Below the pieces are notes generated by a model. The model ran no database searches. It had not been told where the DNA came from and saw only the letters and a list, made by a program, of their open reading frames with translations. A program made the translations under genes and the position numbers. 64,000 nucleotides of DNA from an uncultured Pelagibacteraceae bacterium (lineage in GTDB: Bacteria > Pseudomonadota > Alphaproteobacteria > Pelagibacterales > Pelagibacteraceae), in contig CACIQQ010000004.1 of the NCBI GenBank assembly GCA_902588835.1, positions 36,558-100,557 on the forward strand, in the 5' to 3' direction. Below, in pieces: positions 23,698-35,667 of this stretch; position 1 is the first letter of the stretch, and every line of letters begins with the position of its first letter.

Positions 23698-24899
23698 TGA
23701 AAATTAGACCAGTTATTCTATGCGGAGGAGCAGGTACTAGACTGTGGCCTAAAAAATCAAAACATCAAGCAAAACAGTTCATAGATTTTGGTGGTTGGAC
23801 TTTAATTAACAAAACTTTTGAAAGAGTTAAAAGTAAAGTTTTTGACTATCCAATTATTAGCACTAATTCAAAATATCTTAGGGATGTAAAAAAGGCTTTA
23901 AAGAAAAGTAAAATTAAAAAATATAAGATTATTTTAGAGCCAGCAAAAAAAAATACCGCTCCAGCAATTTTAGCATCAGCACTGATTAAAGATGTCCCAT
24001 ATAACCAACCTTTAATGTATTTTGCTGCAGATCATTTAATTGAAAAGCCAAATAAACTAATAACAGCTATTAATAAAAATAAGTCAAATTTAGATGAAAA
24101 AAACATATTTATTTTTGGAATAAAACCCACAAGCCCTTCTAGTGAGTACGGATATTTTATTACCAAGAAAAAAAAGAACATTAATAAAGTCACTAGATTT
24201 ATTGAAAAACCAAAAGTATCTAAGGCAAAACAAGTAATTAAACAAAAGGGATATTGGAATTCTGGGATGTTTTTTTTGAGAAAAGACTCAATTATTAATA
24301 ATTTTAAGAAATATCAGCCTAATATTTTTCGAAACTGTAACAAAGCTGTAATAAAAGCTAAATATAAAAGCAATGTGTATTATTTAAACAAACAAGCATT
24401 TTCTAAAGCTACAGCAAAATCTTTTGATTATGCGATACTAGAGAAAACTAAAAATATCAATGCGATCAAACTTGATATCCCATGGTCAGATCTTGGGAGC
24501 TGGAAAGAAATCTGCAAAATGTACGGAAAGATTAAAAATAGATATTTTAAAAAGAAAAACGTATTTCATAGACCATGGGGCAGCTACACAAACTTATTTA
24601 AAGGCAAAGAATTCTTAATTAAAGAATTGTATGTGAAATCTAAAGGTATTTTAAGTCTTCAAAAACATTTCCATAGAGCAGAACACTGGGTAGTTACTCA
24701 TGGAATTCCAAGAATCACTCTAAATAAAAGTAAATTCTTAAAGAAACCTGGTGAAACTATTTATATTCCATTAGGAGCTGTTCATAGAATTGAAAATCCA
24801 TTTAAAAAACCGGTAAAAATTATAGAAGCACAAATAGGCTCAATCCTTAAAGAAACAGATATTGTAAGATATCAGGATGTATATGGAAGAGTAAAATAA
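23697..24899 (+). CDS. manC: Mannose-1-phosphate guanylyltransferase / mannose-6-phosphate isomerase-type fusion
   Basis: A 400-residue protein with an N-terminal nucleotidyltransferase (VILCGGAGTRLWPKKSKHQAKQF, FAADHLIEKP, GIKPTSPSSEYGYF, RFIEKPK, WNSGMFFLRK) and a C-terminal cupin (HRPWGSYTNLF, SLQKHFHRAEHWVVTHG, YIPLGAVHRIENP, and the closing DIVRYQDVYGR). It would make GDP-mannose for surface polysaccharide. It is 60-80 residues shorter than usual AlgA/ManC fusions; the middle region is compressed. The start overlaps the ilvD stop by one base, and it is convergent with the DAG kinase gene with no gap. The isomerase half may be only an accessory fold. Confidence 0.88.
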   Translation: MKIRPVILCGGAGTRLWPKKSKHQAKQFIDFGGWTLINKTFERVKSKVFDYPIISTNSKYLRDVKKALKKSKIKKYKIILEPAKKNTAPAILASALIKDVPYNQPLMYFAADHLIEKPNKLITAINKNKSNLDEKNIFIFGIKPTSPSSEYGYFITKKKKNINKVTRFIEKPKVSKAKQVIKQKGYWNSGMFFLRKDSIINNFKKYQPNIFRNCNKAVIKAKYKSNVYYLNKQAFSKATAKSFDYAILEKTKNINAIKLDIPWSDLGSWKEICKMYGKIKNRYFKKKNVFHRPWGSYTNLFKGKEFLIKELYVKSKGILSLQKHFHRAEHWVVTHGIPRITLNKSKFLKKPGETIYIPLGAVHRIENPFKKPVKIIEAQIGSILKETDIVRYQDVYGRVK

Positions 24900-25803: not shown

Positions 25804-25825
25804 TTTAACAAATCTGTAACATTTA
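25804..25825 (+). promoter_or_regulatory. Pho-box-like repeat upstream of plcP
   Basis: Two 11-bp units begin TTTAACA (25804) and TGTAACA (25815), the same pattern as in front of pstS. PhoB boxes are classically 11-bp direct repeats ending with an A/T-rich spacer. It lies 57 bp before the plcP start. It is the best sequence evidence that the lipid remodelling genes belong to the PhoB regulon here. Confidence 0.7.
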
Positions 25826-25846
25826 AATGAAATAAGAAATACATGA

Positions 25847-25868
25847 TTCGTGTTACAGTTGTATTAAA
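25847..25868 (-). promoter_or_regulatory. Pho-box-like repeat upstream of the DAG kinase
   Basis: Read on the minus strand, units TTTAATA and TGTAACA start exactly 11 bp apart, matching the plcP and pstS boxes in order and spacing. It lies 62 bp before the kinase start and faces the plus-strand box with 21 bp between them. The weaker first unit has one change (TTTAATA for TTTAACA). Confidence 0.65.
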
Positions 25869-26698: not shown

Positions 26699-27706
26699 AT
26701 GAAAATTTTAATTGCTACAGATGCATACTTTCCACAAGTAAATGGCGTTGTTAGAACCCTTCATGAAACAGGTGAGATCTTAAAAAAACAAGGTCACAGT
26801 ATAGAATATCTTACACCAGACTTATTTTTAACTTTCCCGATGCCAAAATATAATGAAATTAGACTATCAATTAATGTTTGGCCTAGAGTCGGTAGTTTAA
26901 TAAAAAAAATAAAACCTGATGCAATTCATATCGCTACCGAAGGTCCTATTGGGACTATGACGAGAAGATATTGTTTAAAAAATAATCTAAAGTTTACTAC
27001 CAGTTTTCATACGAGATTTGATAAATATATCAAACTATACTTTCCTATTATACCTGCAAAATGGGCTGAAAAATTTCTAGCAAACTTTCATAACAAAGCT
27101 GAGAGAATTTTAGTAACAACAGAGTCTATGAGAAAAGAATTAATAGATATAGGTATAGACAATAATAAAATGATTACTTGGACTAGAGGAGGAAATCATG
27201 GAGCTTTTAAGAACCCTAAAAAAATTGATTTACCTCACAAAAGACCAATTTGGATTTATGTTGGAAGAGTTGCAGTTGAGAAAAATATAAGAGCTTTTTT
27301 AGAATGTAATTTAGAAGGTACAAAAATAATAATAGGAAAAGGACCTGATTTAAAAAAATTAAAAAAAGAATTTCCTAAAGATATTTTTTTAGGAGAAAAA
27401 ACAAATGGCGAATTAGCATCACATTTTGCATCTTCCGATGTTTTTGTATTCCCTAGTAAAACAGATACATTTGGAATTGTAGTTACAGAGGCTTTAAATT
27501 GCGGAACACCTGTTGCCGCGTATCCTGTCCCAGGTCCCAAAGATATATTTGAAGGATCTAAAATAAATTGTTTAGATAATGATCTTAAAGTTTCAGCCCA
27601 TAAAGCTTTAAAAGTTGATAGAAATGATTGTCTTGAATTTGCAAAAAAATTCACTTGGGAAGAAACAGCAAAAATATTTTTTAATAATATTTCACCAAAT
27701 CATTAG
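26699..27706 (+). CDS. agt: Glycolipid glycosyltransferase (Agt-like, GT4 fold)
   Basis: A 335-residue GT-B glycosyltransferase. The N-terminal acceptor domain starts ATDAYFPQVNGVVRTLHETGEIL, and the C-terminal donor domain has IYVGRVAVEKN, the SDVFVFPSKTDTFGIVVTEALNCGTPVAAYPV block containing the E-x7-E-type motif, and a trailing helix. It resembles SqdX and MgtA-type enzymes. With PlcP it would add a sugar to diacylglycerol, making mono-glycosyl or glucuronosyl diacylglycerols that replace phospholipids. It is three bases behind plcP. The exact sugar (glucose or glucuronic acid) cannot be read from sequence. Confidence 0.85.
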   Translation: MKILIATDAYFPQVNGVVRTLHETGEILKKQGHSIEYLTPDLFLTFPMPKYNEIRLSINVWPRVGSLIKKIKPDAIHIATEGPIGTMTRRYCLKNNLKFTTSFHTRFDKYIKLYFPIIPAKWAEKFLANFHNKAERILVTTESMRKELIDIGIDNNKMITWTRGGNHGAFKNPKKIDLPHKRPIWIYVGRVAVEKNIRAFLECNLEGTKIIIGKGPDLKKLKKEFPKDIFLGEKTNGELASHFASSDVFVFPSKTDTFGIVVTEALNCGTPVAAYPVPGPKDIFEGSKINCLDNDLKVSAHKALKVDRNDCLEFAKKFTWEETAKIFFNNISPNH

Positions 27707-29649: not shown

Positions 29650-29682
29650 TTTAACAAAAGTGTAACAATTTTGTAATAATAA
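29650..29682 (+). promoter_or_regulatory. Pho-box repeat upstream of pstS
   Basis: Three consecutive 11-bp units begin TTTAACA (29650), TGTAACA (29661) and TGTAATA (29672). The period and the TGTAA core match PhoB direct repeats. The last unit ends 65 bp before the chosen pstS start, leaving room for a -10 element in the AT-rich CAATAAATTTATAC stretch. Confidence 0.8.
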
Positions 29683-29747
29683 AGATTCAATAAATTTATA
29701 CGAGTCAATCATCTTTTAATTAATAAATAATGAAAGGATTAAAGATA

Positions 29748-34983: not shown

Positions 34984-35667
34984 ATGTCAGCTCATGTTTT
35001 CATAGCTGAAGATGAAGCATCAATTGTTAGTTTGTTAAAATATAATCTTGAAAAAGAAGGTTATAAAGTCAGTCATTCAGAAAATGGAGAAGATGCTCTT
35101 AAACAAATAAAATCTAAACAGCCAGATTTGATATTAATGGATTGGATGTTACCTGAATTATCTGGTGTTGAAATTTGTAAAAACTTAAAAAAAGATGATA
35201 AGTTTAATGATATTCCTGTCATTATGTTGACTGCAAAAGGGGAGGAAGAAGACAAATTAAAAGCATTTGATACAGGTGCAGATGATTATGTAACTAAACC
35301 TTTTAGTCAAAAAGAATTAAATGCTAGAATTAAATCTTTATTGAGAAGGTCTAAGCCTCAATCATCATCGGATATTGTAGAATTTACTGATTTAAAAATA
35401 GATCGGATTACAAAAAGAGTTTATAGAAAAGATAAGGAAATTACTTTAGGTCCAACAGAATTTAAACTCTTAGATTTTTTTATCAAAAATCCTAAAAGAG
35501 TTTACTCAAGAGAACAACTCTTAAATAATGTGTGGGGAGAAAATATATACGTTGAGTCACGAACGGTTGATGTACACATAAGAAGATTAAGACAAGCTAT
35601 AAACATCGAAAACACAAAACCTTTAATTAGAACGGTCAGATCTGCCGGTTATTCTTTAGAGTCTTGA
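34984..35667 (+). CDS. phoB: Phosphate-regulon response regulator PhoB
   Basis: A 227-residue OmpR/PhoB regulator. The receiver domain has acidic pocket EDEAS, phosphoacceptor Asp53 in LMDWMLPELSG and the lysine in VTKPFS. The C-terminal winged helix contains LGPTEFKLLDFFIKNPKRVYSREQLLNNVWG and SRTVDVHIRRLRQAI, the recognition helix. It is the expected binder of the 11-bp repeats before pstS, plcP and the DAG kinase. Its 3' end overlaps the convergent sixA gene by 19 nt. Confidence 0.97.
   Translation: MSAHVFIAEDEASIVSLLKYNLEKEGYKVSHSENGEDALKQIKSKQPDLILMDWMLPELSGVEICKNLKKDDKFNDIPVIMLTAKGEEEDKLKAFDTGADDYVTKPFSQKELNARIKSLLRRSKPQSSSDIVEFTDLKIDRITKRVYRKDKEITLGPTEFKLLDFFIKNPKRVYSREQLLNNVWGENIYVESRTVDVHIRRLRQAINIENTKPLIRTVRSAGYSLES

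Follow-up and report, generated by a model that had tools for sequence, protein, structure and literature searches.

Two facing PhoB-type boxes between a lipid kinase gene and plcP-agt in a SAR11 lineage, probably set in competition for one shared start region

Divergent promoters that overlap face to face form a known class, in which opposed promoters begin their transcripts across each other's control sites. PhoB-dependent promoters, among them those of E. coli pstS and phoA and of SAR11 plcP, are built from a pair of 7-bp direct repeats at an 11-bp step, followed after about 9-10 bp by a -10, and they lack a -35; the repeat reads TKTAAYA in SAR11, as against CTGTCAT in the known Pho box. 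Putative Pho boxes have been published for the gene clusters that contain plcP, which with agt makes up a known SAR11 lipid-remodelling pair (PMC4796936), and in BATS metagenomes the SAR11 clusters for diacylglycerol kinase, metallophosphoesterase and glycosyltransferase are all over-represented, together with phosphonate genes (PMC3686209). In E. coli, divergent genes are placed under PhoB from one spacer, and two gene pairs share a putative PhoB site (PMC3465305). In Pseudomonas putida BIRD-1, a phospholipase (PlcP) and a diacylglycerol kinase (DagK) are both reported as PHO-dependent proteins of phosphate starvation, and the accessible part of that report describes no shared facing promoter region (PMC5082522).

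Here we report two PhoB-type boxes that face each other between a lipid kinase gene and plcP-agt in an uncultured Pelagibacteraceae bacterium, within a 64,000-nucleotide stretch of DNA (hereafter the window; Table 1). Each box has the repeat architecture of a PhoB-dependent promoter; the locus departs from the known ones in having a second, facing box at a fixed distance of 29 bp and in that the putative core promoters overlap. As in the E. coli pairs, divergent genes would be served by PhoB from a single spacer, although here there is one box per gene rather than a common site. As in the face-to-face class, the predicted transcripts would begin across the opposite control site, whereas here the promoters on both sides apparently depend on a single activator, and the genes are linked by one lipid intermediate. 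The shared activator, the fixed spacing and the pairing of enzymes of one lipid appear to be what is new relative to the known kind. Literature searches on facing Pho boxes and face-to-face divergent promoters returned nothing closer than the site-sharing pairs of E. coli, and no published description of the facing kinase box was found in literature text, the scope of the search; figures, supplements and Carini 2015 lay outside it.

Table 1. Features of the kinase-plcP locus and related features, in window coordinates
Feature	Position	Strand	Details
YegS/DgkB-type lipid kinase, 294 aa	24900..25784	-	PF00781, 1.1e-22; closest solved structure DgkB 2qv7, 5.6e-19
PhoB-type box toward plcP-agt	25804..25821	+	TTTAACA-AATC-TGTAACA; halves 25804-25810 and 25815-25821
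Gap between inner 7-mers, holding both candidate core promoters	25822..25850	.	29 bp
Candidate plcP -10, AATAAG, 9 nt past plcP box	25831..25836	+	core ATAA (25832-25835) invariant
Candidate kinase -10, TATTTC (TAWTTN in relatives), 9 nt past kinase box	25836..25841	-	weak consensus match
Invariant ATGATTCG with GANTC (CcrM-type) site at 25845-25849	25843..25850	.	8 of 8 columns; CcrM gene in relatives
PhoB-type box toward lipid kinase	25851..25868	-	TTTAATA (25868-25862)-CAAC-TGTAACA (25857-25851)
plcP, metallophosphoesterase (phospholipase C type), 270 aa	25883..26695	+	PF00149; gene order as in published SAR11 plcP-agt (PMC4796936)
agt, glycosyltransferase family 4 type, 335 aa, directly 3' of plcP	26699..27706	+	PF13439, PF00534
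pstS box, used as yardstick	29650..29678	+	three repeats, 11-bp step
phoB, presumed box binder	34984..35667	+	TIGR02154 PhoB equivalog, 331 bits against a 296 cut-off

The kinase-plcP spacer is 98 bp long and the facing-box element 65 bp. Both boxes consist of two 7-bp direct repeats with 4 bp between them, and inspection of the sequence bore out the coordinates and the 11-bp half-to-half step that a first-pass annotation had given for both strands. Its figure of 21 bp between the boxes holds only when the halves are counted as 11-bp units; between the 7-mers themselves the distance is that given in Table 1. It had further equated the boxes with those in front of pstS, where the sequence is TTTAACA AAAG TGTAACA followed by a third repeat, TGTAATA. 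The likeness extends to the first two halves, the third repeat having no counterpart at the kinase-plcP spacer and the first half of the kinase box differing by one base (TTTAATA vs TTTAACA).

In AT-rich DNA such a second box could be a chance match, and the outcome of a pattern scan depends on its stringency. A loose pattern with two mismatches allowed is no commoner than in shuffles (59 observed vs 53 expected); the signal separates from background only in strict or matrix scans. The strict pattern TKTAAYANNNNTKTAAYA has 6 matches in the 967-kb genome, 5 of them inside 5.3 kb of the window. With the second half set to TGTAAYA, the pattern TKTAAYANNNNTGTAAYA occurs 100 times in 30 family genomes, where the reversed control pattern occurs 20 times; chance alone would give about 0.6 matches in each Mb, equivalent to about 6e-5 in a 98-bp spacer. 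These genome-wide counts rest on pattern searches. A scoring matrix built exclusively from the pstS promoters of relatives, and applied to all 18-mers of the window, placed the plcP box first (25.4) and the kinase box fifth (18.6), above the best site below the ranked boxes (14.6) and the reversed-control maximum (14.4), so both boxes agree in motif with an accepted target of the same genome. The kinase box is absent from lineages outside one kinase clade, as a chance match might be, yet the strict and matrix scans, together with the column conservation and constant spacing described below, contradict that explanation, which we consider very improbable. With high confidence, both boxes are real sequence elements. 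The site ranked fourth, at 24336-24353, lies inside the gmp coding sequence and scores 21.4, above the control. Of the relatives screened with the strict pattern, G140 alone shares it; not being conserved, the site was set aside as probably a chance match.

The plcP box is recognisable across the SAR11 family, degenerate in places, out to other genera whose plcP is about 58% identical. The kinase box is present in two main groups of loci, class A (the window type) and class B (with kinases 70-73% identical), and, diverged, in locus L126. Conservation in relatives, which the first-pass annotation had set as a condition for its proposal, thus extends family-wide for the plcP box and within a single kinase clade for the kinase box. 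Across 50 distinct window-type spacers, 14 of 18 columns of the plcP box and 15 of 18 of the kinase box are invariant, compared with 11 of 23 in the rest of the gap and 43% of plcP third codon positions, so that each box exceeds both the intervening sequence and the third codon positions in conservation. In every one of the 136 loci of classes A and B, the gap measures exactly 29 bp. In the kinase tree, all loci with a kinase box form one clade (100/99). Because the same trait needs two changes on the plcP+agt tree, the kinase and the spacer seem to have been exchanged together. Common descent could explain part of the constancy of the gap, the kinase-box loci all being of a single origin.

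Lineages outside the kinase clade, whose spacers run to 85-112 bp, yielded no convincing second box, and in L149-L153 a degraded or forerunner sequence occupies the place where the kinase box would sit. By comparison across these lineages, the kinase box is evidently younger than the plcP box. In the spacers of L123, L127 and L142, where the kinase box is missing, TTGTTW-N16-TATAAG was noted by eye facing the kinase on the minus strand, which suggests that the kinase has an ordinary promoter in these loci and that PhoB control was acquired later. Loci L123-L125, compared with L001, combine a window-like plcP-agt with a different kinase clade and another spacer, seemingly through recombination exchange. 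In another genus (g5), plcP is divergent from a gene for a membrane protein that resembles CPBP-type proteases, and the two Pho boxes that lie between these genes stand back to back (L177:2880-2923).

The length of the gap fits two overlapping -10 regions: 9+6-1+6+9 = 29 bp, the plcP and kinase hexamers having base 25836 in common. The hexamers are weakly assigned, that of the kinase most of all, with 3 of its 6 bases matching the consensus. A standard sigma-70 promoter was sought in the region and no -35/-10 pair was found, where shuffles average 2.6, as expected of promoters that depend on an activator. A conserved ATG 5 nt past the plcP box was rejected as a start codon, being upstream of any plausible start site. 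From the positions of the hexamers we infer transcription starts near 25843 (plus strand, plcP) and 25829 (minus strand, kinase), and it is plausible that the start regions overlap. The expectation that both promoters initiate in the gap (25822-25850) and that each early transcript crosses the opposite box is accordingly supported as likely.

Based on these observations, we lean, with a little better than even confidence, towards two inward-facing PhoB-dependent promoters with overlapping -10s that are co-induced, open in mutual exclusion and yield a ratio governed by relative strength. Phosphorylated PhoB on the left box would recruit polymerase to start toward plcP-agt, and on the right box toward the kinase, so that phosphate starvation would turn on both transcripts together. 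Because the putative -10 regions overlap, meeting at 25836, polymerase could not open both promoters on one DNA copy, and one open complex at a time would form. The kinase:plcP ratio would then be set by the relative strength of box and core promoter, plcP being predicted the stronger. PlcP would release diacylglycerol for Agt to glycosylate, the kinase would re-phosphorylate the surplus, and the ratio may thereby control flux between the two routes. The plcP side, which makes a membrane-lipid fragment, and the kinase, which re-uses it, would probably be rivals for a common start region. The first-pass annotation had spoken of alternating or competing expression: competition follows from the geometry, provided that the putative -10s overlap, and alternation does not, the genes being a co-inherited module and their P. 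putida counterparts both reported as PHO-dependent (PMC5082522).

Co-induction of kinase and plcP has a precedent in PlcP and DagK of P. putida, both reported as PHO-dependent, and the precedent would also serve if the overlap had no consequence: both promoters might simply answer PhoB, firing too rarely for a measurable effect, with compactness a by-product of genome streamlining in a small genome of short spacers. In E. coli, moreover, PhoB at intragenic sites left polymerase passage unchanged in all three genes tested (PMC10294691). Plain co-induction sits less easily with a gap of identical length at every one of the 136 loci while other lineages have longer spacers without a second box, and we regard it as possible though distinctly less likely than competition. 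By the same E. coli results, a roadblock formed by bound PhoB is doubtful, although the kinase box, at about +9, lies nearer the point of initiation than those intragenic sites do.

The right-hand box might instead act mainly as a brake on plcP, filling at high levels of phosphorylated PhoB and hindering polymerase at the plcP start (the box spans about +9 to +26), with the kinase not driven from it. PhoB can activate or repress according to site position (PMC10294691), and the weaker matrix score of the right-hand box predicts later filling. The box nevertheless has the orientation and spacing of an activating site toward the kinase and tracks the kinase clade, and no other kinase promoter is evident; we judge the braking role improbable and retain competing promoters as the preferred reading.

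Rightward from the spacer the gene order is plcP, agt, then phoR, pstSCAB, phoU and phoB; for phoR, PhoR is the best family, yet it scores 279 bits vs a cut-off of 334. On the other side, the kinase has an AAGGA, resembling a ribosome-binding site, directly upstream of its ATG, and a DAGK catalytic domain (PF00781, 80 bits vs a 23.6 cut-off). It falls under every NCBIfam equivalog cut-off (best 107 bits vs 385), a score that serves as a proxy for substrate, and diacylglycerol is its presumed substrate from family and neighbours. Among 201 genomes of the genus, 62 carry either gene: the kinase is in 61, plcP in 61 and both in 60, and in the two genomes with only one of them the locus is cut by a contig end. 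Because the two distributions are near-identical, they point to one co-inherited module.

Further boxes in relatives (L257, L259, L260) precede phnX-like (phosphonatase) and arsenate-reductase-like genes, named by eye from translations. Such a position fits a phosphate-starvation regulator. These genes are in turn candidate additions to the SAR11 Pho regulon, to which the kinase likely belongs in the lineage of the window. SAR11 bacteria rank with the most numerous cells of the ocean, and they exchange their membrane lipids once phosphate is exhausted; we propose that in one SAR11 lineage a recycling kinase is part of this starvation programme. A DNA element so small and fixed also lends itself to direct testing of competition between two promoters of the same activator.

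The kinase-plcP spacer and the pstS promoter hold 3 of the 7 intergenic GANTC sites of the window, and coding GANTC sites fall below expectation (97 vs 168 expected). GANTC methylation in Pelagibacter is shown by published data (PMC9516812). No CcrM-type gene was found in the genome of the window, which is best read as incompleteness because all ten near-complete relatives carry one, in one case confirmed as CcrM. A more ambitious reading would make the 65-bp element a switch through which PhoB sets the ratio of two routes, phospholipid breakdown to glycolipid and the recycling of diacylglycerol, mutually exclusive per chromosome, with the invariant GANTC site in addition coupling the decision to CcrM methylation and thereby to replication; we think this unlikely. 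Pairing of the two GANTC copies of the pstS promoter as an RNA stem was considered and rejected, the middle bases being often unpaired. These copies follow the pstS box at 29684-29688 and 29702-29706, 18 bp apart, and their middle base is variable in most relatives (L184-L206).
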